Shown in pieces: positions 20,648-36,006 of a DNA stretch of 64,000 nucleotides. Source of the DNA: Chitinophagales bacterium. Its GTDB lineage: Bacteria; Bacteroidota; Bacteroidia; Chitinophagales; Chitinophagaceae. The notes under the pieces are model-generated. The model did not search any database. It saw only the letters and a program-made list of their open reading frames with translations, and had not been told where the DNA came from. Positions within the stretch are counted from its first letter, which is position 1. The number at the start of each line of letters is the position of its first letter. Made by a program: the position numbers and the translations under genes. The stretch spans positions 2,113-66,112 of the forward strand of contig JAAFIK010000007.1 of NCBI GenBank assembly GCA_013298665.1, written 5' to 3'.

Positions 20648-20881
20648 TTTACATTCTTTAAGTCAATCATAATACAATAAATACGGTTGATCCTTAACTA
20701 GCGCGGTTGTTGTGTATCCATTGTACAATAATATACATGAGTAACACATTACAATAAGATAATTGGATTATTTAGAGATTTTTTGTTGGACTTTAAAAGT
20801 CTCTATACAAAATAGAGAGATTTAAGCTTACTTTGCGGGGGTAATTCTTGGCCGTAAAATTACGCATAAGTTTTAAAGCCC

Positions 20882-20889
20882 CAAATTTA
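20882..20889 (-). promoter_or_regulatory. Possible -7 box for the giant esterase gene
   Basis: The minus strand reads TAAATTTG, matching TAnnTTTG exactly, 14 nt downstream (in minus direction) of the ATACCC palindrome. The resulting leader would be about 230 nt and there is no obvious -33 element, so confidence is modest. Confidence 0.35.
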
Positions 20890-20903
20890 ATTTGCGAAAA
20901 AGC

Positions 20904-20921
20904 ATACCACAAAGTGGGTAT
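20904..20921. promoter_or_regulatory. 18-bp palindrome ATACCA-N6-GGGTAT, site 1 of 3
   Basis: The sequence ATACCACAAAGTGGGTAT is an imperfect palindrome with half-sites ATACC(A/C)/GGGTAT and six central bases. It ends 62 bp before the ATG at 20984. Two more copies with the same 18-bp length lie at 22197-22214 and 32893-32910. It is probably an operator for a dimeric regulator of EPS genes; the regulator is not identified. Confidence 0.6.
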
Positions 20922-20983
20922 TTCGAAAATTGTTACCGCAGATCAGGCTCCAGTATTGCATAATATCAATCCGATTTGAGTTC

Positions 20984-22168
20984 ATGTGTATGATTTCTTT
21001 TTTCTTCTGGCTGGCATTGGCAATTATCATTTACAGCTATATTGGCTATGGTATTATCATTTGGGTGTACCTTAAAGTAAAAGCGCTGTTTACAAGGCCA
21101 AAACCCGTCATCCGCAAAGATTTATATGAGCCCGAAGTAAGTCTTATCATAGCTACCTTCAACGAGGAGAAGGTTATTCAAAAGAAAATTGAAAATACGC
21201 TTCAGCTTAACTATCCTGCTGAAAAGTTGAAAATTATCTTTGCAGCCGATGGATCAACGGACAATACAGTGGATATTATACGTGGGTACCCCGGTATACA
21301 ACTGCTTTTTAAACCCGGGCGGGAAGGCAAAGTAGCGGCTATCAACCGGGCAATGCTAAAAGTCACAACACCCTATGTCATTTTCTGTGATGCAAACACT
21401 TATCTGAACAGCAATTGTATAAGAGAGATCGTCAAGCACTATACCAACCCTGAAATCGGGGCTGTTGCAGGCGAGAAGAAAATTATTGATTCGGCAGAAA
21501 ACAGCAGTACAGCGGGTGCCGGAGAGGGGCTATACTGGAAATATGAGTCATTTTTGAAAAACCTGGACTCCCGTTTTCATACTGTTGTTGGAGCCGCAGG
21601 CGAGCTGTTTTCCATCCGAACAAGTTTGTTTGAGCCAGTTGCTAATAATATATTGCTGGATGATTTCATGATTTCTATGCAGATATGCCGCAAAGGGTAC
21701 CGTGTAATGTATGAGCCTGCAGCTTTTGCAACAGAGGCCCCTTCATCCAGTATGAAAGAGGAGCAAAAAAGAAAAATACGGATCAGTGCAGGCGGTTTTC
21801 AATCGGTGTTCCTTTTAAAAGACCTCCTCAATATATTCAGATACGGCAAACTTTCCTTTTTGTACATATCACATCGTGTGTTGCGCTGGACGCTCTGCCC
21901 CATTTTACTCTTATTCATTTTCGGAGCAAATTTCTATTTATGGAACAAGCATATACATCCGGCATATACTATCATTTTTATACTCCAGGTGCTTTTTTAC
22001 ACTGCTGCAACGGCAGGATGGCTGTTGTCTTTGCGAAACATTAAACTTCAATTATTCTACCCGATCTATTACTTTGTTTTTATGAATATCGCTTTAGGCA
22101 TTGGCTTTTTCCGTTTTGTGAGTAAAAAGCAAACTGTTTTGTGGGAAAAAGCAAGGCGTAAAGAGTAA
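20984..22168 (+). CDS. Membrane glycosyltransferase family 2 (processive-type layout)
   Basis: I start at ATG 20984 (or 20990), giving about 394 residues with an immediate membrane helix (MISFFFWLALAIIIYSYIGYG); the frame extends upstream only through a TTG that would read through the palindrome. The GT-A domain has EVSLIIATFNEEKVI, FAADGSTDNT, the DxD-like FCDANTY, and LLDDFMISMQICRKGYRV. In place of the processive Q-x-x-R-W there is EEQKRKIRI. Two or three C-terminal membrane helices follow. Layout resembles cellulose/hyaluronan synthase-like GT2 enzymes, but the changed motif suggests single-sugar transfer at the inner membrane. It is the first gene of the plus EPS arm and has an ATACCC palindrome 62 bp upstream. 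Confidence 0.87.
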   Translation: MCMISFFFWLALAIIIYSYIGYGIIIWVYLKVKALFTRPKPVIRKDLYEPEVSLIIATFNEEKVIQKKIENTLQLNYPAEKLKIIFAADGSTDNTVDIIRGYPGIQLLFKPGREGKVAAINRAMLKVTTPYVIFCDANTYLNSNCIREIVKHYTNPEIGAVAGEKKIIDSAENSSTAGAGEGLYWKYESFLKNLDSRFHTVVGAAGELFSIRTSLFEPVANNILLDDFMISMQICRKGYRVMYEPAAFATEAPSSSMKEEQKRKIRISAGGFQSVFLLKDLLNIFRYGKLSFLYISHRVLRWTLCPILLLFIFGANFYLWNKHIHPAYTIIFILQVLFYTAATAGWLLSLRNIKLQLFYPIYYFVFMNIALGIGFFRFVSKKQTVLWEKARRKE

Positions 22169-22196
22169 AAAAGCAGAAATACCAGGTGTAAAAGGC

Positions 22197-22214
22197 ATAC
22201 CCACTTCGTGGTAT
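22197..22214. promoter_or_regulatory. 18-bp palindrome ATACCC-N6-TGGTAT, site 2 of 3
   Basis: The sequence ATACCCACTTCGTGGTAT has the same length and half-sites as site 1 (one mismatch between arms). The 3' flank TATTTC is also shared with site 1. It lies 20 nt upstream of a TAnnTTTG box, the position where an activator replacing the -33 element would bind. Confidence 0.6.
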
Positions 22215-22234
22215 ATTTCAAAAAAACAATAATT

Positions 22235-22242
22235 TAATTTTG
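22235..22242 (+). promoter_or_regulatory. Likely -7 promoter box of the pseudo-receiver/priming-transferase unit
   Basis: TAATTTTG is an exact match to TAnnTTTG. There is no TTG at the expected -33 distance; only TTTC lies there, next to palindrome site 2. This fits an activator-dependent promoter. Confidence 0.5.
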
Positions 22243-22473
22243 AAGTATAAATGTTTTCAGTAATTTTACGGTATAAAGAATCCCCTTAAGACAAAATCCT
22301 CAAAAAAGATTTTGGTATAACAAAGCTGCTCACTGCTGAAAAAACCTCCACAAACTCTGATATCCATTGTACTTCCCTGTACGTTGAATTGCTATATAAA
22401 TTAAGATCCCATTGTATTCCATTGAGAAAAAATCTCTACCGGATAAACTATTGAAGCCATTAAACCATTGACG

Positions 22474-22896
22474 ATGAAGAAAAAAATTTTAGCAATTGAT
22501 GAATGTAAGGCAATGCGGTATATCCTTACCTCAGTTTTCAGTAAAGGGTATGATGTTACAACATTACCCGATCCCTGTTCAGCAGTTCATCATCTCAGCA
22601 TAAACAATCAGCAGGATCTCATTATTCTTAATATCCCTGATGCGGCATCAGATAATTTCAGGCTACTGGAGCATATTACCAGCAGTGCTTACACACGCAC
22701 AACACCAATGGTTGTTTTATCGGATGTAAACAATGAAGCATTCGCGGCCGATATTGTTAAACTTGGGGCTTCATTTTTCTTAACAAAGCCATTTGATCCG
22801 GCTGTGCTGGCAGATAAAGTACGTGAGCTTACGCAGCATGATACAGCAGAAATTCTGCCGAAAAGAAGACGGCTTATCAACATGAATATTTTTTGA
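22474..22896 (+). CDS. Stand-alone pseudo-receiver (REC-like) protein
   Basis: Starting at ATG 22474 (the TTG at 22468 is less likely) this is a 140-residue single-domain protein with the receiver-domain order of strands and helices: KKILAIDE at strand 1, DLIILNI at strand 3, TPMVVLSD at strand 4, ASFFLTKPF at strand 5 with the conserved Lys. The phospho-acceptor Asp after strand 3 is Asn (residue 53 from this start), and the acidic pair at strand 1 is DE. It therefore probably cannot be phosphorylated in the normal way and may act as a binding or sensor module. The gene lies 68 bp upstream of the priming sugar transferase, which itself carries a receiver-like N-terminus, so the two proteins may interact. 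That is inference. Confidence 0.8.
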   Translation: MKKKILAIDECKAMRYILTSVFSKGYDVTTLPDPCSAVHHLSINNQQDLIILNIPDAASDNFRLLEHITSSAYTRTTPMVVLSDVNNEAFAADIVKLGASFFLTKPFDPAVLADKVRELTQHDTAEILPKRRRLINMNIF

Positions 22897-22964
22897 TCAT
22901 ATATACTACTACCTCAGGATATTGTTTAACAGCAATTTTCTGAGAAGCTCTTAAACCTTAAACA

Positions 22965-24065
22965 ATGTCAACAACAAGATTAACTGATGCCTTCGTGTGT
23001 CAGGCAGACAACGACCCGGTGTCCATTCATGAGTTTCTGCTCATCAGTGATCAGCACACAAACCAGCTCATCAATACCGCGTTTCTCGGAAAATATACTT
23101 GTGTAAATAGTTTTGCTGCTGCCCGCAGCTTTCTTTCTGTACAGGCTAAAAAGAGCGTCCCCCTGTTCATTATTGTCAGTCAGAAACTCAACCACGATGA
23201 ACTGTTTGATTTTAAAGACTGGCTGAAGCGTGCATCCAAAAATTTTATCCCGGTATTTTACAACGAAACATTCCTGCTTGACCGCGAGAAAGAAGGCCTG
23301 AGGAAGATGAATCTCGTGGATGATGTTGTGAACCTCGAAAAGGTTTGGGATAAATTATACGCCAAAGCGTTTTTTCTAAAAAAGATGAATGAACAGGCAT
23401 CGCCACTCCACTTAAAAAGGAGTAAGGGTGAGTTTAAGCCATGCCTGAATTGCCGTCTCAAAAGGTTGGGGGATATTGGCATTGCTTCTATTGCCATTTT
23501 GCTGACTTCACCATTATTCCTGATCATAGCCATCCTGATAAAACTCGACTCAAGGGGGAATGTTTTTTATTGTGCAACGCGCGCAGGAAGGGGGTTTAAG
23601 GTTTTCAGGTTTTATAAATTCAGAACAATGGTAAAGGATGCAGATAAACAGGTTGACGAACTTGCAGGTCTGAATATATACAAAAACAGCGATGACAGTC
23701 CGGCATTTTTCAAAGTGGAAAATGATCCCCGGGTTACCAAACTGGGCAGTTTTCTTCGCAATACAAGCCTTGATGAATTGCCACAGTTGTTCAATGTATT
23801 AAAAGGAGACATGAGTATTGTAGGCAACCGGCCATTACCACTGAAAGAAGCAGCAGCACTTACCACCAATGAATGGGCAGAGCGTTTTATGGCTCCGGCA
23901 GGCATTACAGGGTTATGGCAGGTTTCTAAAAGAGGAAGTGAAGATATGAGTACCGCGGAACGTATGGCGCTCGATATCGAATATGCCAGAAGCCACAGTT
24001 TCAGGGATGATCTCAGGATCATCCTGAAAACACCTGGTGCGCTCATCCAAAAAACAAATGTGTAG
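22965..24065 (+). CDS. Priming sugar transferase fused to a receiver-like N-terminal domain
   Basis: The 366-residue protein has two parts. Residues about 165-366 are a bacterial sugar transferase (WbaP/WcaJ/PglC superfamily): one membrane-associated hydrophobic segment at about 170-192, the Arg-rich RFYKFRTM, catalytic DE (Asp270-Glu271 in SLDELPQ), SIVGNRPLP and ITGLWQVSKRG. It would transfer a sugar-phosphate to undecaprenyl phosphate, starting the EPS repeat unit. Residues about 20-140 replace the usual multi-helix N-terminus with an alternating alpha/beta stretch (EFLLISD, YTCVNSF, PLFIIVSQ, FIPVFYN) whose spacing resembles a receiver domain. The position expected for the phospho-acceptor is Ser72. 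This suggests control of priming by protein contact or a ligand. ATG at 22965 is well placed. Confidence 0.85.
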   Translation: MSTTRLTDAFVCQADNDPVSIHEFLLISDQHTNQLINTAFLGKYTCVNSFAAARSFLSVQAKKSVPLFIIVSQKLNHDELFDFKDWLKRASKNFIPVFYNETFLLDREKEGLRKMNLVDDVVNLEKVWDKLYAKAFFLKKMNEQASPLHLKRSKGEFKPCLNCRLKRLGDIGIASIAILLTSPLFLIIAILIKLDSRGNVFYCATRAGRGFKVFRFYKFRTMVKDADKQVDELAGLNIYKNSDDSPAFFKVENDPRVTKLGSFLRNTSLDELPQLFNVLKGDMSIVGNRPLPLKEAAALTTNEWAERFMAPAGITGLWQVSKRGSEDMSTAERMALDIEYARSHSFRDDLRIILKTPGALIQKTNV

Positions 24066-24090
24066 ATTTGTCTGAAAAGAAAGGAAAGTA

Positions 24091-25005
24091 ATGAGCAATG
24101 CACAAATGAGGGATCCGCTCGTATCGGTTATTACCCTGAACTGGAACCAGACTGAAGTGACTGGGGCATTTTTGGAGAGTACCCGTCACCTGACTTACAA
24201 GAATTACGAAATCCTTGTTTGCGATATGGGGTCGGATGTCAATCCCGCTGAGCAGTTCAGCAAAGCTGGATATCCCAATACAAAAACGCTTCGATCCGAA
24301 GTCAATCTTGGATTCACCGGTGGTAACAATTGGGGGATGCGACAAGCCAAAGGGGATTTTCTCTTCATCGTAAACAACGACACTGAAGTAACGCCCGATC
24401 TTCTGGATGTTTTACTGGAGCCTTTTTTCAAGGATCCGTCTATTGGCGTTACCTGCCCTAAAATCCGGTTTCATCACCACCCCGATATTATCCAGTACGC
24501 CGGTTTTAATCCCATTGATGTGTATACCGGCAGGACTACGGCGGTAGGAAATATGGAGGAGGATAAAGGTCAGCATGATACAAGCGGGTACACAAGCGGG
24601 GCACATGGCTGTGCCATGATGGTGAAGAAAAGTGTTATCGACCAGGTGGGTATGTTTCCTGAAAAATTTTTTATTTACTACGAAGAATGGGACTGGAGTG
24701 CAAGGATTCTTAAGGCCGGATACCATATTTATTACCAGGCTAAGGGGCTGATATTCCATAAAGAGTCTATAACCATGGGTAAGCAAAGTGCAATTAAGGT
24801 GTACTACCATACCCGTAACCGCATACTGTATATGCGACGCAATACCAGTTTGGCAAGTTTTATTATCTTTACACTGTTCTTTATATTTGTGTCCACCCCA
24901 AAAGCTGTGGTGAAATTCATGGCCAACAGGCAGTTTAAACATTTAAAATCTTATATAAAGGGAATTACCTGGAACCTGACCCAATCAAAATATTCACCCG
25001 TATAA
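24091..25005 (+). CDS. Glycosyltransferase family 2, rhamnosyltransferase-like
   Basis: A 304-residue GT-A enzyme. The fold starts at LVSVITLNWNQTEVT, then NYEILVCDMGS, NLGFTGGNNWGMRQAKGDFL and the metal-binding-site segment FIVNNDTEVTPD. ACMMVKKSVI and YYEEWDWSARILKAGY follow, as in GT2 enzymes often annotated as rhamnosyl- or N-acetylglucosaminyl-transferases (WcaE/WbbL-like). The C-terminal amphipathic and hydrophobic helix (ASFIIFTLFFIFVST) likely holds it to the membrane. It lies 25 bp after the priming transferase and 27 bp before the epimerase gene, so it is co-transcribed. It probably adds the second sugar. Donor sugar unknown. Confidence 0.87.
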   Translation: MSNAQMRDPLVSVITLNWNQTEVTGAFLESTRHLTYKNYEILVCDMGSDVNPAEQFSKAGYPNTKTLRSEVNLGFTGGNNWGMRQAKGDFLFIVNNDTEVTPDLLDVLLEPFFKDPSIGVTCPKIRFHHHPDIIQYAGFNPIDVYTGRTTAVGNMEEDKGQHDTSGYTSGAHGCAMMVKKSVIDQVGMFPEKFFIYYEEWDWSARILKAGYHIYYQAKGLIFHKESITMGKQSAIKVYYHTRNRILYMRRNTSLASFIIFTLFFIFVSTPKAVVKFMANRQFKHLKSYIKGITWNLTQSKYSPV

Positions 25006-25032
25006 CTTCTTACCAAAATCAAAAAGGAAAAA

Positions 25033-26046
25033 ATGATTACTTCATTAATTACAGGCGGTGCAGGATTTATTGGCTCTCATGTTGTGAAACATTGCCTTGA
25101 CATGGGGCACAAGGTAGTGGTACTCGATGATCTCAGCGGCGGTTTCGAAGACCATATCCCTGAAGGAGCAGTGTTTGTGGAGGGTACCATTACTGATACC
25201 ACGCTGGTTCAGCAACTGTTTACAAAATACAGTTTTGATTATGTGTACCATCTTGCTGCTTATGCGGCAGAAGGACTTTCACATTTTATCCGTCATTTTA
25301 ATTACAACAATAACCTTATCGGTAGCATTAACCTGATTAATGAGTCCATTAAACATAAAGTAAAATGCTTTGTTTTTACCTCCTCAATAGCGGTGTATGG
25401 TAAGGGGCAGTTGCCCATGACCGAGGAGATGACACCCATCCCTGAAGACCCGTATGGTGTATCGAAGTATGCAGTAGAATTGGATCTCCGGTCTGCCCAT
25501 GAAATGTTTGGCCTGAACTATGTCGTATTCCGTCCGCATAATGTTTACGGTGAAAATCAAAACATCGGGGATAAATACCGTAATGTAATCGGTATTTTCA
25601 TGAACCAGATCATGCAGGGAAAGAAGCTTACCATTTTTGGTGACGGTACACAAACCAGGGCGTTCAGTTATATTGACGATGTGGCGATACCCATCGCAAA
25701 ATCAGTTGAAATACCTGCTGCATATAATAATGTTTTCAATATTGGTGCAGACAAGCCTTACTCTGTTAATGAGCTTGCAACTGTGGTGTGCAGGGAATTT
25801 GGCGTAGAACCGGATATTACCTACCTCGCCGCGCGCAATGAAGTATTACATGCTTACAGCGATCACCATAAAGCGCAGGGAATATTTGGTGCTTCAACAG
25901 GCATTAGCCTCGAAGAGGGTATTACCAGAATGGCAAACTGGGCCAAAAGGGTTGGAGCAAGACAGAGTAAAGAATTTGACAATATTGAGATTACGGAAAA
26001 ACTGCCGGAAGGATGGGGTATTGTAAAAAATGCCGTACCTGCATAA
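25033..26046 (+). CDS. NAD-dependent sugar epimerase/dehydratase (GalE-like SDR)
   Basis: This 337-residue extended short-chain dehydrogenase has the N-terminal NAD-binding motif TGGAGFIGSHV and the catalytic YxxxK in YGVSKYAVE preceded by the serine region FTSSIAVYG. HNVYGENQ and the late FGDGTQTRAFSYIDDV are typical of UDP-glucose/UDP-N-acetylglucosamine 4-epimerases and UDP-glucuronate epimerases. It would supply an activated sugar for the EPS glycosyltransferases. The C-terminal tail of about 25 residues after the usual fold is a little longer than in GalE. The next gene starts 160 bp later, the largest gap in the plus arm downstream of 22474. Confidence 0.88.
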   Translation: MITSLITGGAGFIGSHVVKHCLDMGHKVVVLDDLSGGFEDHIPEGAVFVEGTITDTTLVQQLFTKYSFDYVYHLAAYAAEGLSHFIRHFNYNNNLIGSINLINESIKHKVKCFVFTSSIAVYGKGQLPMTEEMTPIPEDPYGVSKYAVELDLRSAHEMFGLNYVVFRPHNVYGENQNIGDKYRNVIGIFMNQIMQGKKLTIFGDGTQTRAFSYIDDVAIPIAKSVEIPAAYNNVFNIGADKPYSVNELATVVCREFGVEPDITYLAARNEVLHAYSDHHKAQGIFGASTGISLEEGITRMANWAKRVGARQSKEFDNIEITEKLPEGWGIVKNAVPA

Positions 26047-26206
26047 TAACTTTCCGGAAGGCATATAACTATTAACGGATTTTTATTACCCCTTAAGCAA
26101 AGCAGCAGTACAATGGTATGTCTGTAACCACAGGCATTTCCTTGTAATTTATAACATATCTTTCCTGTTTACGCAAACAGAGATTAGGTCACTAAATCAG
26201 TTCTGA

Positions 26207-27331
26207 ATGATTATTGGTATTGAAGCACAACGACTATTTCGCCGGAAAAAACATGGGATGGAGGTCGTTGCTCTTGAAATAGCAAGAGTATTGCAGCAGG
26301 ATACCAGCGATAACCATTATGTTTTGTTTGCCAGAAAAGATGTGGATGAAGATTGTCTTGCCGGTACGGCCAACTTTTCAATTCTCAGCTTTTCTGCACA
26401 ATCTTTTTTTACATGGGAGCAGATCGCATTACCCCGTAAGGTAAAGAAAGTAAAACCTGATATACTACACTGTACAGCCAATACAGCCCCGCTTTTCTGC
26501 AAAACGCCTACTGTCGTTACCATACATGATGTTATCTATCTTGAAACGCTGAATTTTTCGGGATCCCCATATCAGAATTTCGGGAACCTGTATCGACGTT
26601 TTGTTGTACCACGCATTGCTAAAAAAGCCAGCATCATCATCACCGTATCCGAATTTGAGAAGAAAAGACTGGCAGAAAGGTTGCAACTGCCGGAAGACAA
26701 AATAAGGGTGGTCTATAATGGCATCAATCCTCAATTCAGGCGTATTGATAATACAGCGGCACTTCAGGCATTCAGAAACGTGTACGGTCTTCCTTCAGAA
26801 TTCCTGCTCCATTTTGGCAATACTGCACCTAAAAAGAATACGATTGGCACATTGAAAGCCTTTAAGGTTTATTGCGCTTCGGCAACACGTATTCTCCCGC
26901 TTGTGATAACAGACTGCGACAGTAAATACATCACTACCCTGCTGAAAACAATCAATGCGCCGGAACTGATCCGGCATATTCAGATACTCGACTATGTACC
27001 TTTTGCACAAGTACCCCTTCTTTACAACCTCGCAACCATCTTTTTATATCCATCGCACCGCGAAAGCTTTGGTATGCCGGTTATTGAAGCCATGGCCTGC
27101 GGAACCCCGGTTATCACATCAGATACCTCATCGCTGCCTGAAGTAAGTGGTGACGCAGCATGCCTGGTTAGTCCTGCAAATGCCGCGGGCATTGCTGCAG
27201 CGATAAAAGAGTTGCTGGATAATGAACCCCTCTACCTGCAGAAAAGGGAACAGGGATACAAAAATGCCGCCCGCTTTAGCTGGAAACAGGCAGCCGAAAA
27301 AACAATTGCCATTTATAACGAATTAAGATAG
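26207..27331 (+). CDS. Glycosyltransferase family 4/1 (EPS synthesis)
   Basis: A 374-residue GT-B enzyme. The N-terminal half starts MIIGIEAQRLFRRKKHGMEV, typical of mannosyl- or glucosyltransferases. The donor site carries the E-x7-E motif in RESFGMPVIEAMACGTPV (residues about 285-302), followed by LPEVSGDAACLVSP. It is cytoplasmic or loosely membrane bound and would add a sugar with retention of configuration. The start is at ATG 26207 after a 160-bp gap that contains a small palindrome GTTT/AAAC; a separate promoter there is possible but I found no good -7 box. The stop is 2 bp before the methyltransferase ATG. Confidence 0.88.
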   Translation: MIIGIEAQRLFRRKKHGMEVVALEIARVLQQDTSDNHYVLFARKDVDEDCLAGTANFSILSFSAQSFFTWEQIALPRKVKKVKPDILHCTANTAPLFCKTPTVVTIHDVIYLETLNFSGSPYQNFGNLYRRFVVPRIAKKASIIITVSEFEKKRLAERLQLPEDKIRVVYNGINPQFRRIDNTAALQAFRNVYGLPSEFLLHFGNTAPKKNTIGTLKAFKVYCASATRILPLVITDCDSKYITTLLKTINAPELIRHIQILDYVPFAQVPLLYNLATIFLYPSHRESFGMPVIEAMACGTPVITSDTSSLPEVSGDAACLVSPANAAGIAAAIKELLDNEPLYLQKREQGYKNAARFSWKQAAEKTIAIYNELR

Positions 27332-27333
27332 AT

Positions 27334-28116
27334 ATGCTGCCAACAATGCAGGAAATATTAGCTTCATCGGGGTTTAAAAACTATTCAGATATCAAGCGTT
27401 TGAAATTTATTCTGACCTCGCTTGATGCGCATACGCCACCCAATGGTTCGGTATTAGATGTGGGATGCGGCAATGGATTGATCACCCGGAGTATCGGAAA
27501 AGCAGGGTATCAGGTGAGAGGAATTGATATCAGTACAAAAGCCATCAATAAAGCCCGGGAGATTGGTCATCCTGCAAATGTCAGCTTTGACGTGGTTAGT
27601 GCAGAAGAACTTTCGGTAAGCAGCCACCAGTATGATGCTGTTTTGTGCAGCGAGGTACTGGAACACCTGGCAGATCCCGGATCACTGCTTGAGGTACTTT
27701 ACCGTTCATTAAAGGATAATGGGGTGCTGATTGTTACCGTTCCTAATGGTAAGGGTGCCAGGGAAACCTTTATTACAAAACCCGTTATTGCGCTTCAAAA
27801 AAAGAATAACTGGCAATGGAAATGGCTTCAGAAAATAAAATCTCTTCTTGGGTATAAAGGCACTACCCTGCAAAGCGATGCAGACGATCTTACCCATGTT
27901 CAGTTTTTTACCCGCAAAAAATTAAATGCACTTGCCGCAGAACATTCATTTGTGATCACAAGTTTTGGAAAAACAAATTTTGTAGAGAATGTTTTCCCTT
28001 TTTCATTAATTGCCAAAAGAATACTTTTTTTTCAAAAACTGGACTGTGCAGTGGCCGAGTACCTCCCTTATCGTTTTACCGGAGCATTTGTAAGTACCTG
28101 GAAAAAGAAAGTGTAA
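27334..28116 (+). CDS. Class I SAM-dependent methyltransferase
   Basis: The 260-residue protein has a Rossmann-type SAM-binding core: motif I VLDVGCGNGLITRSI at about residues 37-51, the acidic end of strand 2 in RGIDIS, and AVLCSEVLEHLADPG as motif II/III, all as in UbiG/Methyltransf_11 enzymes. The C-terminal half has basic and aromatic patches (KKNNWQWKWLQKIKS) that may bind the membrane or a lipid-linked acceptor. It sits 2 bp after a glycosyltransferase gene and 3 bp before another, so it probably methylates a sugar of the EPS repeat or a chain end. The second methyltransferase at 30327 is unrelated in its N-terminus. Confidence 0.87.
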   Translation: MLPTMQEILASSGFKNYSDIKRLKFILTSLDAHTPPNGSVLDVGCGNGLITRSIGKAGYQVRGIDISTKAINKAREIGHPANVSFDVVSAEELSVSSHQYDAVLCSEVLEHLADPGSLLEVLYRSLKDNGVLIVTVPNGKGARETFITKPVIALQKKNNWQWKWLQKIKSLLGYKGTTLQSDADDLTHVQFFTRKKLNALAAEHSFVITSFGKTNFVENVFPFSLIAKRILFFQKLDCAVAEYLPYRFTGAFVSTWKKKV

Positions 28117-28119
28117 CGC

Positions 28120-29322
28120 ATGGAGCAGATAAAAAATATTTTGTGGATACTCTACCTCACTTTAAATGTGCTCGTGGCCATTTATTTTTTGCAGCCGGTT
28201 CTGTTCTCCCTCTTGTACTTTATTTTACCCGGCAAGAAAAAGAAACCTGTTCATACTGCTGCTGAAACAGATTTTGCAGCAATCGTTACTGCGCATCGCG
28301 ATACAAGATTTATACCTCCGCTGGCAGACTCATTTTGCAAACAGCAATACAAGCACTTTATGCTGTATGTTGTGGCAGATGATTGCGATATATCTGCATT
28401 GCATTTTGAGGATCCCCGCATCAGGATACTGTCACCGCCCGTTCCGTTCAATGCCAAGGTGAAATCTATAGCTTATGCTGTTGAGCATTTTGAGCGCGCG
28501 CATGATGTACTGATTATATTCGACAGCGATAATCTTGTTCACCCCGATTATTTGAAGAACCTTAACCGGTATTTTCAGGATGGGTTCAGGGCAGTACAAA
28601 CACATATGCTTTCCAAAAATACTGGCAGTACTTATGCAAAACTCGACAGTGTAGGGCATATCTACAACACATTTACCGAACGGGAATGTAAAATGAAACT
28701 GGGTTTATCTTCTGCTATTTTGGGGTTGGGTATTGCAATTGACATGGCACTTTACAAGGAGATTTTTTATAATAACACCCTTGGCGGGTTCGACAAAAAA
28801 TTGCAGATACAACTCGTACAAAAGGTAAAGCAGATTGCGTTTGCGCACGATGCTGTTGTATATGATGAAAAAGTGGAGGATGGCAGCACACTGGAAAAGC
28901 AGCGCACCCGATGGATCTTTACCTATTTTAAATACTTCAGGGAAAGTCTTTTACTTTTGCTGAAGGGGCTGAAACGCATGCGATCAGGTGAGGTAATGAT
29001 GGGTCTGATGATGCTCCGTCCGCCTTTGTTTATCCTTTGCTTTGCGGCACTGGTGCTTTGCATTGCCGGCTTTTTTCTTTCGCCGTTATTGGGCATACTC
29101 TGGTGTTGTATACTCAGTATGTTTGCCCTGAACTTTATATTGGTGATTGCCCTGAAAAGCCGGCAGAAAGGTATGGTGCAGGCCCTGATACATATTCCTA
29201 AAATAATCATCCGGCAGGTAAAATCCCTGCTCCGTATCAAAACTGCAAATAAAGACTTTTTAAAAACAGAACACAAGCATGTCATGTTTATCGACGAGGT
29301 ATTGAAAAATGAGTCTGCTTAA
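28120..29322 (+). CDS. Membrane glycosyltransferase family 2
   Basis: A 400-residue protein with an N-terminal membrane helix (about 8-33), a GT-A domain and C-terminal helices (about 295-355). The catalytic core shows TDFAAIVTAHRDT, the DxD motif IIFDSDNLVHPD, and an intact Q-x-x-R-W (QRTRW) near residue 268, so unlike the GT2 at 20984 it keeps the residues of processive or ceramide/chitobiose-type enzymes. It would act at the inner membrane. Its end overlaps the deacetylase start by 14 bp, showing operon coupling. Whether it polymerises or adds a single sugar cannot be told here. Confidence 0.87.
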   Translation: MEQIKNILWILYLTLNVLVAIYFLQPVLFSLLYFILPGKKKKPVHTAAETDFAAIVTAHRDTRFIPPLADSFCKQQYKHFMLYVVADDCDISALHFEDPRIRILSPPVPFNAKVKSIAYAVEHFERAHDVLIIFDSDNLVHPDYLKNLNRYFQDGFRAVQTHMLSKNTGSTYAKLDSVGHIYNTFTERECKMKLGLSSAILGLGIAIDMALYKEIFYNNTLGGFDKKLQIQLVQKVKQIAFAHDAVVYDEKVEDGSTLEKQRTRWIFTYFKYFRESLLLLLKGLKRMRSGEVMMGLMMLRPPLFILCFAALVLCIAGFFLSPLLGILWCCILSMFALNFILVIALKSRQKGMVQALIHIPKIIIRQVKSLLRIKTANKDFLKTEHKHVMFIDEVLKNESA

Positions 29323-30334
29323 AACCATATTTTATTCTGCCGCCGCAGGTTTGCCTACCGTTTTTCTGAAACGGATCAGCCCTGTCCGTACCCTGTTCCC
29401 ATATCACCATACCGTAAGTAACGGAGCGCTTTTACACCTGAAGCATCTTTATACATGCAAAAGCGTGCAGCAGTTCACCGCTGATCTTGATTTTTTGTTG
29501 CGTCATTTCAAGCCGGTATCGGTAACCGATCTTATACAAGCCGTTCATTCCAATACAAAGCTGCCGGCCAATGCTTTCTTACTGAGTTTTGATGACGGGT
29601 TCAGGGAAGTACATGATACCGTTGCGCCTATTCTTACTGCCAAAGGAATACCAGCCATATTTTTTGTGAACCCGGCATTTATTGATAACAAGGTTTTGTT
29701 TTACCGATGCAAAATAAGCCTGCTTATTGACGCGCTTATACAATTAACCCCAGGTAACGATCTGCTCAAAAAGTCAGCAGCCATCCTGGACTGCCGGGAG
29801 ACTTCGGTTCAGGCGCTTTCAAAAATACTTAAAGCCATCAGGCAGGATGAAGCCGGCAAATTGGATGTTCTTGCAGAAACACTGAACGTTTCATTTGATA
29901 ACTATCTTGCTACTGCACGCCCGTTTATGACAACGGATCAGCTCAGGACACTCAGCAAGCAGGGGTTTACAATAGGCGGGCACAGTTGGGATCATCCTTA
30001 CTATGACCTGCTTACGGAAGAGCAACAGGTTGAGCAGACGATACGCTCATGCCGGTATGTACAGGAAAATATCAGTTCAGGCCCTGTTGTATTTTCATTT
30101 CCACATACGGATAAGCATATAAGCCAGTCATTTTTTGACACAGCCGGGCTCAAAGAGATCGACTTATTTTTCGGTATTCAGAATCAAAAACAGGAGTTGC
30201 ATAATAAAATGCTGCACAGGTTTAATGCAGAACGTCCGGAATACCCCCTTAATAAACAGGTTAACGGTTTACTGGTGTACCTGCTGCTGCGGGCAATTTT
30301 TTCACGTAAAAATGTAATGAGAAAGCATGCTTAG
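29309..30334 (+). CDS. Polysaccharide deacetylase (NodB/CE4 fold)
   Basis: This 341-residue protein has the NodB motif 1 at SFDDGF (Asp95-Asp96) and motif 2 at GGHSWDHP (His225, His229), which provide the catalytic base and the metal ligands of CE4 N- or O-deacetylases. About 85 residues precede the domain and there is no classical signal peptide, only a weakly hydrophobic N-terminus. Action on a lipid-linked intermediate in the cytoplasm or on exported polymer are both possible. An insert of about 90 residues separates motifs 1 and 2, as in Bacteroidota EPS-locus relatives. It overlaps both neighbours (14 bp and 8 bp), so it is tightly coupled in the operon. Confidence 0.88.
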   Translation: MSLLKTIFYSAAAGLPTVFLKRISPVRTLFPYHHTVSNGALLHLKHLYTCKSVQQFTADLDFLLRHFKPVSVTDLIQAVHSNTKLPANAFLLSFDDGFREVHDTVAPILTAKGIPAIFFVNPAFIDNKVLFYRCKISLLIDALIQLTPGNDLLKKSAAILDCRETSVQALSKILKAIRQDEAGKLDVLAETLNVSFDNYLATARPFMTTDQLRTLSKQGFTIGGHSWDHPYYDLLTEEQQVEQTIRSCRYVQENISSGPVVFSFPHTDKHISQSFFDTAGLKEIDLFFGIQNQKQELHNKMLHRFNAERPEYPLNKQVNGLLVYLLLRAIFSRKNVMRKHA

Positions 30335-31097
30335 TACAAAACAAAAAGAGGCATTGGGGCCGCTTTTTCCCATCGCAGATAGCGTCAGGCGTTTTTATCT
30401 CCGGATCAAATATGCGGGTAATAACGTTTATTGTCCTTGCTGCGGAAGCAGATTTAAATCATTTGCGCCTTTCGGGGCAAAGCGGCGCAACAATGCCTGG
30501 TGCCCAAAGTGTCAAAGCCTCGAAAGGCACCGATTATTGTGGCTCTACCTCGAAAAGAAAACAGATTTATATACCACCCCGCTCAAAGTGCTCCATATTG
30601 CACCAGAAACAACTTTTTTTCATTTTCTGAACAATAAGACCAATATTGAGTATTGCCCGGTAGACATATATCCAAATCTTTACCCGGATGGCACGAAGTA
30701 TTTTAACCTGCTTGAGCCTGATGCACCTGATGCCAGTTTTGATGTTATCATCTGCAACCATGTTTTCCAGTACATAGAAGAAGACGAAAGGGCAATGCGC
30801 AATACTTATAATCTCCTGAAGCCCGGTGGTTGGGGGATTATGCAGGTGCCCATCGACAAATCAAAACAGGAAACTTATGAAGATAAGACCATCACCACAG
30901 AAGCAGAAAGAGAAAAAGCTTTCGGACTGAAAGAGCATGTTCGCTTTTACGGGCTGGACTATGCGGACAAACTCCGGAAGGCGGGATTTACCGTAAAAGT
31001 TGACGACTACACGGCTGAGTTTTCTGATGCAGAAAATTATCAATACGGGTTCTGGAAAGGCGATGCTGTTTATTACTGCACAAAGCCCCCCCGTTAA
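30327..31097 (+). CDS. SAM-dependent methyltransferase with zinc-ribbon N-terminus
   Basis: A 256-residue protein. Residues about 36-75 contain two CxxC pairs (YCPCCGS and WCPKCQS) that look like a zinc ribbon, followed by ERHRLLWLYL. The methyltransferase-11-like core follows with VLHIAPE, VDIYPN and FDVIICNHVFQYIEED, where motif I is atypical (HIAPET instead of a GxGxG loop). This combination is common in sugar-locus methyltransferases of Bacteroidota. It overlaps the deacetylase gene by 8 bp. Acceptor unknown; methylation of an EPS sugar is likely from context. Confidence 0.83.
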   Translation: MLSTKQKEALGPLFPIADSVRRFYLRIKYAGNNVYCPCCGSRFKSFAPFGAKRRNNAWCPKCQSLERHRLLWLYLEKKTDLYTTPLKVLHIAPETTFFHFLNNKTNIEYCPVDIYPNLYPDGTKYFNLLEPDAPDASFDVIICNHVFQYIEEDERAMRNTYNLLKPGGWGIMQVPIDKSKQETYEDKTITTEAEREKAFGLKEHVRFYGLDYADKLRKAGFTVKVDDYTAEFSDAENYQYGFWKGDAVYYCTKPPR

Positions 31098-31107
31098 AAA
31101 AATCTGT

Positions 31108-32238
31108 ATGGCGATTCAATGGAAAAGATATGTGTTGAAAGCAATATTCCTGGGTAATATCATCTGCCTGATTTTATTAGCGGGTAGTAATCTTGCTCCT
31201 TATCTGAGTCCGGCCAACTGGTGGCCTGTATCTTTACTGGGATTGATTTTCCCACTGCTATTTGCGCTAACCGTATTGTTTTGCATTTTCTGGTTTATTG
31301 TACAACGCCGGAAGGCTGCATATTGCCTGTTGCTCATTCTCTCAAGCATTCCGAACATTATCTCTTCTTTCGGCTTTTATCCGGGTAAGGTTTTCAGGGC
31401 AACAAAGCCAGCGAATACCATCAGGGTCATTACCTGGAATGTAGGGTTGATGAATTATATGGCTTCAGACAGTACCACAGCAAGAAGCAATAATAAGAAG
31501 ATACTGGATGCCCTGCAGAACTTCGATGCCGATATCGTTTGCCTGCAGGAGTTTTTTACAGCAGTAAAGCCTGGAAACTATTACAACCTTACAGACTCCA
31601 TTGCCCGGGTATCGGGCTTTCCTTACCATTATTTTTCTTTCGACTACCCAAAGTTCAATGGTGAGTTCTATAGCGGCAGTATTATATTCAGCAAACATAA
31701 AATCGTCGATACAGCCAAAGCAATCTACGAAAAACCTTTTGCCGGCAGTATCATCAGGGCTGGTGTGCAGATAGGCAGTGATACGGTAGATATTTTTACA
31801 ACAAGGCTCCAGAGTGTACATTTCGGAAAGAACGAATACCGTATCCTGAACAGCCTGAAAAAAGGGGGGGATGGTAATCTTAGTGGGTCAAAGAGTTTGA
31901 TCCGGAAGTTGCGGTTTGGCTACCATGAGCGAACCGGACAGGTAGAACTGGTAAAAGCAGCATACCTGTCGAGTCATCGTCCCATGATCCTGACCGGCGA
32001 TCTCAATGATGTTCCATCCAGTTATACCTATCGCCAGATCAAAGGGGATATGCAGGATGCATGGCTGAATAAAAATTTCGGTATGGGGCGTACGTTCAGG
32101 CTTATCTTTCCCACACTCCGCATCGATTACATTTTTTACAACGATTTTTTTACCTGCAGCCAAACCAGCCGCATTCTTTCAGGTGGCAGTGATCATCATG
32201 GATTGGTTACAGACATACAACTGCAACGGCAACCCTGA
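31108..32238 (+). CDS. Membrane-anchored endonuclease/exonuclease/phosphatase-fold protein
   Basis: I start at ATG 31108, 10 bp after the upstream stop, giving 376 residues; a frame start further upstream would overlap the methyltransferase gene. Two or three membrane helices occupy about residues 10-90. The EEP domain follows with all main catalytic patches: VITWNVGLMN, VCLQEFF (Glu), GSIIFSK, LTGDLNDVP (Asp, Asn), RIDYIF and SGGSDHHGLVTDI (final Asp-His pair). The fold serves nucleases and phosphodiesterases. With membrane anchoring and an EPS operon context it may be a phosphodiesterase acting on a lipid or polymer phosphate, but this is inference. It is the last gene of the plus arm. Confidence 0.87.
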   Translation: MAIQWKRYVLKAIFLGNIICLILLAGSNLAPYLSPANWWPVSLLGLIFPLLFALTVLFCIFWFIVQRRKAAYCLLLILSSIPNIISSFGFYPGKVFRATKPANTIRVITWNVGLMNYMASDSTTARSNNKKILDALQNFDADIVCLQEFFTAVKPGNYYNLTDSIARVSGFPYHYFSFDYPKFNGEFYSGSIIFSKHKIVDTAKAIYEKPFAGSIIRAGVQIGSDTVDIFTTRLQSVHFGKNEYRILNSLKKGGDGNLSGSKSLIRKLRFGYHERTGQVELVKAAYLSSHRPMILTGDLNDVPSSYTYRQIKGDMQDAWLNKNFGMGRTFRLIFPTLRIDYIFYNDFFTCSQTSRILSGGSDHHGLVTDIQLQRQP

Positions 32239-32251
32239 AGGCTGCCGTTGC
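32223..32251. terminator. Hairpin at the end of the plus EPS arm
   Basis: A perfect 9-bp stem GCAACGGCA/TGCCGTTGC spans the stop codon of the EEP gene, between two convergent genes. There is no T tract, so termination is uncertain. Confidence 0.4.
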
Positions 32252-32276
32252 TGTGTATATCATCGATATTTATTAC

Positions 32277-32831
32277 TCATCTTGCATATACGCCATTCGG
32301 AGAAACAACACTTGCCGGGCCTCCTGTGATGCCTGCCGGTGGAATAATGATGTTAATCACCTGCCCATCTATCTTTAATACAGTATTGCCGCACGACTGT
32401 TCCACACCTTGCTGGGTAAAGGGCGACATTGCTGCTGGTTCGCGGTTGATCAGGTAGGCCGGGCTGAGTGCGGTCATCTCCACTTCAAATGTATGGCCGG
32501 CTACCACACACCTGGAATAAGCCGACACCCCGTCCATACGAATATCAATCTCTGCAGTCAGTACGGGAGCATCTTCAAACGGCGTACCTGCAAAAATATT
32601 CGGGCCGAAATAGGCACCAACACCCGGATCGGTGCTTACAAAACCCATCACCAGGGGTGCCGCATTGGGATCGGGTTGCCAGAAAATCATGCCACTTGGA
32701 GCACTACCTGCCGGCGTATTGACCATACGACCCAGGTGAACAATCACATTGGGCATTTGCAGCTCAGGCGACGTAAGCGCTACCAGATCAACCCCACCTT
32801 CCCAGCTCATCCATTTAGAAACAGTCTGCAT
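32277..32831 (-). CDS. Unrecognised 184-residue protein
   Basis: I do not recognise this protein. It is 184 residues, begins MQTVSKWMSWEGGVDLVALT, has no signal peptide or membrane helix, and is rich in Pro, Gly, Val and Ile, with predicted beta-structure (LTAEIDIRMDG, TVLKIDGQVINIIIPP). Composition and frame are convincing and it stands alone between convergent and downstream genes. A perfect palindrome of the ATACCC type lies 61 bp upstream of its ATG, the same kind and spacing as upstream of the EPS glycosyltransferase at 20984, so it may be co-regulated with the EPS genes. Two cysteines are present. Function unknown. Confidence 0.72.
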   Translation of the reverse strand: MQTVSKWMSWEGGVDLVALTSPELQMPNVIVHLGRMVNTPAGSAPSGMIFWQPDPNAAPLVMGFVSTDPGVGAYFGPNIFAGTPFEDAPVLTAEIDIRMDGVSAYSRCVVAGHTFEVEMTALSPAYLINREPAAMSPFTQQGVEQSCGNTVLKIDGQVINIIIPPAGITGGPASVVSPNGVYAR

Positions 32832-32892
32832 AAAAAAGTTTTATTGGTTGTTATTAATGTTGTAAACATAACAGCTATATCCGTTTGATTCT

Positions 32893-32910
32893 ATACCCTT
32901 CCCAGGGTAT
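32893..32910. promoter_or_regulatory. 18-bp palindrome ATACCC-N6-GGGTAT, site 3 of 3
   Basis: ATACCCTTCCCAGGGTAT has perfect 7-bp arms and the same 18-bp length and half-sites as sites 1 and 2. In the minus direction a TATGTTTA near-match to the -7 box follows 22 nt later, close to the 20-nt spacing seen at site 2. It could also form a small hairpin in RNA. Confidence 0.6.
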
Positions 32911-32916
32911 TTTGCA

Positions 32917-32950
32917 AAATGCAATGCCGCACCAGATGGTGCGGCATTGC
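32917..32950 (-). terminator. Intrinsic terminator of the S46 peptidase gene
   Basis: A perfect 13-bp stem (GCAATGCCGCACC with its complement) closes a 4-nt loop at 32921-32950 and is followed on the minus strand by ATTTTG. It lies 28 bp after the stop of the peptidase gene. It is strong enough to isolate that gene from the unrecognised gene downstream. Confidence 0.75.
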
Positions 32951-32977
32951 AACAATATATTTATTGCGTATCCCCTG

Positions 32978-35140
32978 CTACTTTAATAGTTGCAGTTCGT
33001 CAATAATATTTTTAGCACCACCAAGTTTTTCGATACACCAGAGCACATACCTTACATCCACACAAATGGTACGGTTCAGGTCTTTGTCATAAATCAGTTT
33101 CTGGCTCATGGCTTCGTAGTTGCCATCAAAACATAGACCAATCAGGTTGCCCTGGGCATCCAGAACCGGGCTGCCGCTGTTGCCGCCGGTAATATCATTT
33201 GTGGTGATAAACGTAACCACCAGATCATTGTACTTCTTATCGATGTACTGTCCGTAATCCCGGTTACGCAGCAACTCTACCTGTTTGGCAGGCAGGTCAA
33301 ATTCATAGTCGCCTGGTTTGTATTTTTCAAGGATACCCTTACCCGTACAAACATAGTCGTAAAAAACACCATCACGCGGCCGGTAGCTTTTTACATTCCC
33401 AAAACTTACCCGCATACTCGAATTGGCATCGGGGTACATTTTTTTAGCGGCTACCGGATTCATTTCCATCATACCTTTCATATACGATTTACCCAATTCG
33501 TTGTTGCGGTTGTTGAAGACTGTGTATAATGGCGCATACTTTGTATTATAGTTTTTCACGAACGCACTCGCAAAAGCAAACGCAGGATCATTTTGCAGGG
33601 TGAGTCCATCAGGATTGGCTGCAAATGCCGCCCACTTTGCATCATCAAGAAACATTGTATTCGCAAAAACCTGCCTGGCCCATGTTTTAAATGTTGATTC
33701 TTCCCTGAGGTCGCCAAAAGTTGCTTTAAGTCCCTCATAAAAACCGATGGGGTGCTGTGCCTTGTCAATATCATTGTAAAACATCATTGCCATCGTTGCA
33801 AGTATCTTTTCATCGCTGGGTTTGTCTTCACTGGCCATAAAGTTTTTCCGGGCAGCAGCGGCGGCGGCCATTGCTTTTTTCAGGTCATCCGGCTTTGTAT
33901 CCGTTTTCACAAGGGCATCTTCCACCTGCAGCATAAAGGAGCCTAATGCCGCAAGCGGTGAACCCACAATACCTTCCCGCATATACTGACGGTGTTTGGC
34001 ATACGGCATCCAGGCAGTATAATTTTTCGCATACTCTGCAAAAATGTTTTCGTACTCAGGCTTCCCTTTGGCCCAATTGATAAAATCCTGCTCTGACTTT
34101 TGTTTGGCTTCATAGGTGTGAAACTGGTGCAGTTTTTTACTTTCACCATCATAAAATTTCCAGTAATTGGCTACGCTGGCATAATTGCTGGCCAGCTTGA
34201 GTTTTACAGCCGGATCCTTGATCATCTGCTCGTACATAAACTTAAGCCTGGCATCGCGCAGGTTAACCAGTGATGGATTATCAATATCCCTGCGAAGTTT
34301 TATACCATAAGAAGTTTCATAACGGTTTGTACTGCCCGGGTAGCCAAAAATCATTGCAAAATCGCCGTCTTTAATCCCTTTGATGGATACCGGCAGGAAT
34401 TTCTTAGGTTTAAGGGGGGTATTATCCTTACTGTAATCAGCAGGCTTACCCTCTTTGTCCGCATAAACCCTGAATACTGAAAAATCACCGGTATGCCTGG
34501 GCCATTCCCAGTTGTCAGTATCTCCGCCATACTTACCCACACTTTCAGGAGGTGCACCAACAAGACGAACATCCCGGTAAGTCTTGTATACATACATCAG
34601 GTATTGGTTATTGTTAAACATACTGTATACCCTTCCGGATATACCATTGTCCTTATCCAGTACCTTATCCGTAATCGACTTATAGACATCAGGTATTTTT
34701 TTTGCCCGGTCGGCCCAACTCAGCCCCTGTACACCATCCATCACTTCTTTAGTAACATCAACAATACGGTCTAAGAATTGTACCGTAAGCCTCGAAGGTA
34801 TTTCCTGATCTTTATTATAGGCATAAAACCCGTCTTTCAGGTAATTGTGCTCCACACTTGATGCACTGGCGATGGCATCATAACCACAGTGGTGGTTGGT
34901 AAAGATAAGACCCTGGTTACTTACAATTTCGCCCGTACAACCAGCGCCAAAAATGATAATAGCGTCTTTGATGCTTGATTTGTTGACGCTGTAGAGTTGC
35001 TCACTGGTGAGTTTTAGGCCGCGCTTAACCATATCCTTATACACCTGTTCGCCAAGGAGCATGGGCAACCACATACCTTCATCGGCACTTGCCCGGAACA
35101 AACTGAGGGACAGCAGCGCCGAGATGAAAATTTTCTTCAT
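32978..35140 (-). CDS. dpp7: S46 family dipeptidyl-peptidase, DPP7-like
   Basis: This 720-residue secreted serine peptidase has a signal peptide (about 1-19, ending RASAD). The chymotrypsin-type catalytic residues are visible as TNHHCG (His84 region) and GGNSGSP (Ser655). The residue 18 after the serine, which sets P1 preference in the family, is Gly673 (CFDGN). Gly is typical of DPP7 (hydrophobic P1), whereas DPP11 has Arg for acidic P1. Length and motif spacing match characterised relatives of about 712-722 residues. It would remove dipeptides from peptides in the periplasm for amino-acid supply. It is a single-gene unit with its own promoter and terminator. Confidence 0.93.
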   Translation of the reverse strand: MKKIFISALLSLSLFRASADEGMWLPMLLGEQVYKDMVKRGLKLTSEQLYSVNKSSIKDAIIIFGAGCTGEIVSNQGLIFTNHHCGYDAIASASSVEHNYLKDGFYAYNKDQEIPSRLTVQFLDRIVDVTKEVMDGVQGLSWADRAKKIPDVYKSITDKVLDKDNGISGRVYSMFNNNQYLMYVYKTYRDVRLVGAPPESVGKYGGDTDNWEWPRHTGDFSVFRVYADKEGKPADYSKDNTPLKPKKFLPVSIKGIKDGDFAMIFGYPGSTNRYETSYGIKLRRDIDNPSLVNLRDARLKFMYEQMIKDPAVKLKLASNYASVANYWKFYDGESKKLHQFHTYEAKQKSEQDFINWAKGKPEYENIFAEYAKNYTAWMPYAKHRQYMREGIVGSPLAALGSFMLQVEDALVKTDTKPDDLKKAMAAAAAARKNFMASEDKPSDEKILATMAMMFYNDIDKAQHPIGFYEGLKATFGDLREESTFKTWARQVFANTMFLDDAKWAAFAANPDGLTLQNDPAFAFASAFVKNYNTKYAPLYTVFNNRNNELGKSYMKGMMEMNPVAAKKMYPDANSSMRVSFGNVKSYRPRDGVFYDYVCTGKGILEKYKPGDYEFDLPAKQVELLRNRDYGQYIDKKYNDLVVTFITTNDITGGNSGSPVLDAQGNLIGLCFDGNYEAMSQKLIYDKDLNRTICVDVRYVLWCIEKLGGAKNIIDELQLLK

Positions 35141-35162
35141 ATTACTTGCAATATTTAAGCAG

Positions 35163-35170
35163 CAAACCTA
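35163..35170 (-). promoter_or_regulatory. -7 box of the S46 peptidase gene
   Basis: The minus strand reads TAGGTTTG, matching TAnnTTTG, with a TTTCG (near TTTG) about 20 nt upstream. The start site would lie about 15-20 nt before the ATG at 35140. Confidence 0.5.
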
Positions 35171-35411
35171 ATTAATTTTTGGTGGCTGTGCGAAATAATG
35201 TTTGGAATGGTGACCAGGAATAACAGATCACTACCCGGCGTTTTATCCTGCTCTTTGCATCTTCATCCTGTGCGTTATACCTTCGCCGCCTGCAGTATCA
35301 CTCATGCACGCAGGTTTTACTCCTTTTACACCCGCCCGCTCATAGCCGGATAAGGTTTTATCGGGATGAACCCCATCATTTCGGATGCACCTGATTTTAT
35401 AGGAATGCTTT

Positions 35412-35828
35412 TTATTGTTCTTTTTTGAAAACGGAAAGAAAAAACATTGGTTTTCCAGCTGTTGTAAATGATTCGGGATAAGCATCCCCTTTGAGGTTGT
35501 AACAGATGGTTAGCCATTCATTTTCGTACTTATACAATGCGGTAAAGTGTTTGCCGGCATTTACGCCTTCTTTTCCATAAATGTCCGCTTTATCACCATG
35601 AAAACGCACAACGCCCTTGTCAACACTCTCCGCAATAAGCGTATAGTTACTGTCGCTGATGATAAGTTTTTGTTTTTCGAATGCTGCTTTCAGCAGCTTT
35701 GTACCGCTGAACTCCTGTTCGGCGGGTATCCAGGTTCCGTTCAGTTTACCAGATTTTGCCGAAGCGTTTTTTGTACCGGTACAGCCAAGCGTAAAAATCA
35801 GCAGGAGAATTGATGTTGTTACCCGCAT
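35412..35828 (-). CDS. Small lipoprotein, TIGR03067-like domain
   Basis: From the ATG at 35828 (a GTG at 35852 is less likely) this is a 138-residue lipoprotein: signal MRVTTSILLLIFTLGC with lipobox LGC at residue 16. The mature part (LNGTWIPAEQEFSG, FHGDKADIYGKEGVN, WLTICYNLKGDAYPESF) matches the TIGR03067 family of small lipocalin-like extracytoplasmic proteins. Function of the family is unknown. The gene stands alone; a 271-bp gap to the peptidase gene and a 239-bp gap upstream hold no other gene. Confidence 0.82.
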   Translation of the reverse strand: MRVTTSILLLIFTLGCTGTKNASAKSGKLNGTWIPAEQEFSGTKLLKAAFEKQKLIISDSNYTLIAESVDKGVVRFHGDKADIYGKEGVNAGKHFTALYKYENEWLTICYNLKGDAYPESFTTAGKPMFFLSVFKKEQ

Positions 35829-36006
35829 ATGTTTTGTTTTATAGTTTATCACAAAAAGTTATAACACAGTAAAGGGTGAAATTGTAAAAGTTTCACTTCA
35901 GCCCGTTGGCAAAAATGACTGATCATGCTAATGTACAAAACCTGGCTGATATCTGTTCTATTGATCAGGGAGAATAGTGGGTTGTTCCGTGTTTACATGG
36001 CGCTGA

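Follow-up and report, generated by a model that had tools for sequence, protein, structure and literature searches.

A palindrome placed before -7 boxes in Chitinophagaceae, probably an operator with mostly secreted-protein targets

What do three copies of one 18-bp palindrome do in a single stretch of a Chitinophagales genome? The stretch, called the window here, is 64,000 nt long (assembly GCA_013298665.1, contig JAAFIK010000007.1, positions 2,113 to 66,112), and the original prediction, made from its letters alone, took the palindromes for operators of an activator-controlled exopolysaccharide (EPS) regulon that also includes a gene of unrecognised family at 32277. We consider it likely that ATACC-N8-GGTAT serves as operator for a dimeric activator, probably one of the NarL/FixJ family, that stands in place of a -33 element and acts mostly on genes for predicted secreted proteins. 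Computation shows the motif itself, how far it stands from a -7 box, that it recurs in front of orthologous genes and small-RNA copies, and that it is linked to response-regulator genes. The window contains the following sites.

20904..20921, strand not assigned: site 1, exact palindrome, without a -7 box 20-23 nt away on either side
22197..22214, plus strand: site 2, exact palindrome, putative operator with an exact -7 box
22235..22242, plus strand: -7 box TAATTTTG of the predicted site 2 promoter
32863..32870, minus strand: -7-like box TATGTTTA of the predicted site 3 promoter, one mismatch to TAnnTTTG
32893..32910, minus strand: site 3, exact palindrome, putative operator of gene 32277, -7-like box at 22 nt

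Distance from the palindrome to the -7 box

An exact motif scan of the window confirmed the palindromes at 20904, 22197 and 32893 and returned no others; allowing two mismatches gave 52 matches, against a shuffle mean of 28.0. The genome holds 30 exact ATACC-N8-GGTAT in 4.83 Mb, so about 0.4 would be expected per 64 kb, and three is a mild local excess. The distances to start codons had been read correctly (62 nt from site 1 to the ATG at 20984, 61 nt from site 3 to the ATG at 32831), as had the -7-like boxes, TAATTTTG 20 nt past site 2 and TATGTTTA 22 nt past site 3 on the minus strand. At site 1, scanned in both directions, no -7 box with at most one mismatch lies at 20-23 nt; an exact TAAATTTG is found 14 nt away on the minus strand. 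Two of the three palindromes, sites 2 and 3, look like gene-control switch sites, and site 1 does not fit this architecture.

The distance to the -7 box, not the half-site pair alone, is the decisive feature. We counted TANNTTTG with at most one mismatch (the Bacteroidota consensus used was TAnnTTTG) at distances of 0-60 nt around the 30 sites of this genome, in 60 orientations. At 20-23 nt downstream, 240 tests yielded 14 boxes, against an expectation of about 1.5 from composition (p 5e-10) or 2.2 when the other distances set the rate (p 5e-8); four of the 14 are exact, compared with 0.09 expected. We also scanned 59 genomes of the genus, this one included, for TACC-N8-GGTA followed after a gap of 8-36 nt by TANNTTTG. 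Among the 150 matches listed, the gap after GGTAT was 21 nt in 23 and 22 nt in 22, compared with 3.9 for each other gap. With gaps fixed at 20-23 nt, there were 157 matches in the 59 genomes versus 42 for the reversed pattern, and 11 versus 1 in this genome.

At 41 congeneric sites from the peak of gaps, the palindrome is mostly TACCC-N6-GGGTAT (C in 24, G in 28), and ATACCC-N6-GGGTAT appears to be the best form of the operator. The sigma-A -7 box of Flavobacterium lies at -12 to -5 (PMC9723704); with a gap of 21-22 nt, the operator would thus span about -51 to -34, with its centre near -43. There the palindrome would take the place of the -33 element in the manner of a class II activator, and a dimer bound beside the sigma-A -7 box would help RNA polymerase. 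Gene 32277 would be driven from site 3, and the leader of the receiver gene at 22474 from site 2; overall, the targets would be mostly genes for predicted secreted proteins, with a conserved small RNA as well and a response regulator in five of the relatives.

The same placement could suit a repressor covering the -33 region of sigma-A promoters, since the palindrome overlaps that place. The commonest letters in the two columns after GGTAT at the 41 sites are T (21) and G (23), counted per column and not jointly, so a TTG would fall at the -33 place, and it could adjoin the palindrome at about half of these sites. The prediction that there is no -33 element stands for sites 2 and 3; at congeneric sites a TTG could occupy that place. 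We nonetheless find a repressor unlikely: sites 2, 3 and other copies carry no TTG there, as if the site had replaced the element, and a position near -43 matches known activator sites, for instance NarL II at -44.5 (PMC7419079). We infer activation rather than repression from the operator position and from the sites lacking a -33 TTG; the transcription starts and the protein family are likewise predicted. As for the activator control originally proposed, sites 2 and 3 have an activator-like placement before a -7 box, and site 1 has no box at that distance.

Sites 1 and 2 could instead be short RNA hairpins, either terminators or copied palindromes, unrelated to site 3. All three sites had been said to differ in their centres; this is true of site 3, but the reverse complement of site 1 differs from site 2 at only 1 of 18 positions, and a 5-bp stem is possible for both. 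Such stems would be weak, however (-3.5 and -3.9 kcal/mol), with no T run, an exact -7 box follows site 2 at 20 nt, and the centres differ among the genome copies, all of which makes hairpins a very remote prospect. The original reading of the sites as regulatory, and not as a copied repeat, is supported. The palindrome is probably an operator.

Genes behind the sites

The genes behind the operator-plus-box sites appear to encode mostly predicted secreted proteins, not a polysaccharide network. Eight of the 14 promoter-like sites in this genome lie 36-72 nt before an ATG (L001, L007, L010, L012, L017, L018, L023 and window site 3), and seven of these eight genes have a signal peptide-like start, the exception being gene 32277; L010 is trypsin-like, L012 papain-like and L017 a subtilase. 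The other six comprise a small RNA (L021), site 2 (259 nt from its gene), L009 (153 nt), L014 (no gene called), L019 (only an 80-amino-acid open reading frame, ORF) and L020 (inside an ORF). The site is kept before the paired targets L012/L108 and L018/L332. An L007-type promoter that looks conserved by eye in 7 species was not counted as a footprint because it is probably in the 3' end of a coding frame.

To this we added a survey of relatives, with 96 operator-plus-box sites selected among the matches listed (36 from the gap 8-36 search, 60 from the gap 20-23 search). A gene was called, mechanically, at 69 of the 96, and 53 of these 69 have a signal peptide-like start by a simple hydrophobicity rule, which also picks up membrane proteins. 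For proteins of at least 200 amino acids, the fraction is 40 of 50 compared with 193 of 481 control ORFs (p 6e-8), the controls being taken from the window and from loci of other genera and so partly from other genomes.

The genes next to the window sites are these.

20984..22168, plus strand: glycosyltransferase family 2 gene (PF00535), between sites 1 and 2
22474..22896, plus strand: receiver-only response regulator gene (PF00072 only), the nearest gene downstream of site 2, at a distance of 259 nt
32277..32831, minus strand: gene 32277, 184 amino acids, family unrecognised, behind site 3, no signal peptide-like start

Gene 32277, whose protein has no Pfam, NCBIfam or PDB-sequence match, keeps its predicted place in the regulon: the operator is found before two orthologues in other species, 61 nt from the start in G058 (L314) and 45 nt in G054 (L345), with conserved half-sites and differing centres. 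Both loci came from the operator search, which does not give the share of 32277 orthologues that have no site. Upstream of the L314 orthologue, two operators about 30 bp apart lie between divergent genes, and the start of the divergent gene resembles the L116/L130 family. In the window, a Peptidase S46 gene (PF10459, 32978-35140) lies upstream of site 3 on the same strand, and between the two is a perfect 15-bp stem at 32920-32951 (TGCAATGCCGCACCA / TGGTGCGGCATTGCA), perhaps a terminator.

The claim that all three sites control EPS genes fared differently. In its favor, the first glycosyltransferase gene lies between sites 1 and 2, and site 2 has an exact -7 box. Orthologues of the glycosyltransferase at 20984 occur in 13 of 58 other genomes (45-65% identity); within flanks of up to 1.5 kb, none of these 13 loci has an exact operator and one has a match with one mismatch. 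Site 1 is without a box at 20-23 nt, and elsewhere most of the members identified are predicted secreted proteins, joined by the small RNA. We rejected the EPS regulon on these 13 loci, the sole EPS gene compared, and consider it highly improbable. Site 2, which has the right architecture, may still drive the EPS operon of this genome. A perfect inverted repeat, TCTCTAT-ACAAA-ATAGAGA, lies at 20800-20818, between divergent genes and upstream of site 1.

A small RNA family with several promoter types

One site in this genome, C70:9897, has no protein behind it; the stretch directly after its -7 box is nearly identical in three other species and ends in a hairpin with a T run. It corresponds to a small RNA of roughly 70 nt with the core CATAGGATATTGGAT and an intrinsic terminator, and the same core lies downstream of 14 of the 96 surveyed sites, in 14 genomes. 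With at most three mismatches, the core is present in 59 of the 298 genomes searched in the order, all of them within the family of the window (59 of 85 there, 0 of 213 elsewhere). Records with the core, among the matches listed, are labelled Chitinophagaceae, Ferruginibacter, Niastella, Flavihumibacter, Terrimonas and Bacteroidota, and when two mismatches were allowed in 18 letters, 129 of the 150 matches listed were exact. Across 177 distinct copies, GGTTTTT before the core and T after it are conserved at 99-100%, figures inflated by the selection, which required the 15-letter core and for most loci used 18-22 letters. Compensatory changes are seen in the terminator stem, for example G-C to A-T, and RNA folding predicts a mostly unpaired core followed by the terminator. 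The core carries AGGA and TGGA, with a weak 4-bp stem predicted around AGGA.

This genome has four copies, L021:7738 (C70), L399 (C78), L167 (C1) and L168 (C43), and the operator is present only at the C70 copy. With at most one mismatch, it is found at 35 of the 177 copies, a set that includes loci fetched by the operator itself, and 33 of these lie 40-42 nt before CATAGG. When copies were fetched by the RNA alone, the operator was present at 26 of 166, at 22 of them 40-41 nt before the core; the reversed motif, one scrambled motif and the N9 form all gave zero in the same 166. The remaining copies have other promoters, some of which look ECF-like by eye; at L400, L404, L407 and L409, in relatives, an ECF-like promoter (AAAACC ... 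GCGTT) stands in place of the operator.

The RNA is unlikely to be coding because copies gain or lose an A just after the core. Scans of 13 loci and of window positions 20000-36000 against Rfam gave no match at the gathering score, only two weak opposite-strand hits far below threshold, and no known RNA family, tRNA or tmRNA in the loci scanned. To look for extended antisense targets, we searched for the complement with at most two mismatches and took 20 stretches from the matches listed; these held 24 core-like places, and by eye all 24 look like small-RNA copies with a terminator and none like a message. The 5' part shared by the siblings has the complement ATCCAATATCCT-ATG-AAAAACC, a start codon and then a lysine codon. 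A lysine codon after the start is usual in signal peptides. Because the complement spans a start codon, the siblings may hold an RNA-binding protein or tune how secreted proteins are translated; the idea that messages for secreted proteins are the target of the RNA is a guess based on the regulon content and this complement.

Candidate regulators and known systems

We think the binding protein is probably a response regulator of the NarL/FixJ family. Regulators 47-50% identical to L046 of this genome lie directly upstream of an operator in G006, G048 and G065, and in G021 and G050 a further two (53-55%) are found about 4-6 kb away from an operator. A different regulator, type A (L101), occurs in 5 of 59 genomes at 81-100% identity; just before its ATG, all five loci carry an operator, matched exactly at two and with one mismatch at the other three, and a perfect -7 box. 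In these relatives type A may regulate itself. The four linked or candidate regulators tested all have a receiver (PF00072) and a GerE domain (PF00196). This genome has 31 GerE matches. Its best candidate is type C, which is L046 itself, an orphan regulator (C30:6409-7044) beside a dapB-like gene with orthologues (69-79%) in 13 other genomes, one of them a fragment. Genomes with type C average 6.3 operator promoters and those without it 1.5 (size-stratified permutation p 5e-5; Mann-Whitney p 0.016 for genomes of at least 3 Mb; neither corrected for kinship); five genomes without type C have 5-6 sites each. Type C as the binder is a tentative proposal.

Several observations weigh against the operator reading as a whole. 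Half-site spacing by itself is not significant, and we rejected this weak evidence: of 284 matches to ATACC-N(3-14)-GGTAT in the genome, 30 have a spacing of 8, compared with 23.1 per other spacing (p about 0.09), and the reversed pattern occurs 10 times, reversal also altering word frequencies. About 16 of the 30 sites in this genome have no -7 box at 20-23 nt, many of them inside ORFs, and among the 14 that do, L020 is inside a coding ORF and L001 depends on TTCATTTG. Part of the 157 genus matches must be chance because the reversed pattern gives 42. An N7 form (17 bp) occurs at eight of the 166 small-RNA copies, seven at the same place, so either the spacing is not strict or a second pattern exists. 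No site with at most two mismatches in all was found at the promoters of the 30 GerE loci scanned in this genome, the 31st match having no locus. Finally, type A was ruled out here as the general binder, with no match at E 1e-60; it may be an autoregulated member.

If the operator reading is correct, the large environmental family Chitinophagaceae gains a defined operator with its promoter architecture, together with a list of targets and a shortlist of regulators. It would also bring to light a multi-copy small-RNA family, nearly invariant in sequence and missing from Rfam; some copies are inside the regulon and others outside, so its function is directly testable.

Systems of this kind are already known, but neither the sequence libraries nor the openly licensed papers searched contained this operator, regulon or small RNA. 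GacA is a response regulator of the NarL/FixJ family. In Pseudomonas, the GacA site TGTAAG-N6-CTTACA stands before rsmY and rsmZ at -75 and -196 (PMC4950607); like the palindrome here, it is an 18-bp 6-6-6 palindrome before small-RNA genes, but its half-site is TGTAAG and not ATACCC, its positions differ from one near -43, and rsmY and rsmZ are not like the small RNA here. The GacA sequence was not seen at our sites, where the half-site is ATACC(C) throughout by definition of the search and no other sequence holds that place. It is conceivable, if speculative, that Chitinophagaceae have a Gac/Rsm-like pathway without Gac/Rsm parts, in which a NarL-type regulator would use one operator to switch on secreted-protein genes and one of several sibling small RNAs, each sibling under a different promoter type. 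Rfp18 of Flavobacterium psychrophilum is likewise a conserved Bacteroidota small RNA, reportedly needed for precise protease expression (PMC9723704); Rfp18 is reported to be strongly folded, whereas the RNA here has a mostly unpaired core and a terminator.

Close parallels in layout are the 7-2-7 sites of NarL and NarP in E. coli, inverted 7-base elements with a 2-bp spacer and the heptamer TACYYMT (PMC7419079, PMC4886647). TACC-N8-GGTA fits the 7-2-7 length and has the same TACC half-site start, and the 41 sites have C at heptamer position 5 in 24, A or C at position 6 in 24 and T at position 7 in 11. Here, in contrast, positions 6 and 7 (M, T) are only weakly kept, the -7 box is of the Bacteroidota type, and no nitrate genes were seen. 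A single site near -44 can activate, a feature of NarL, whose activator site NarL II lies at -44.5 (PMC7419079), and the centre of the palindrome would lie near -43.

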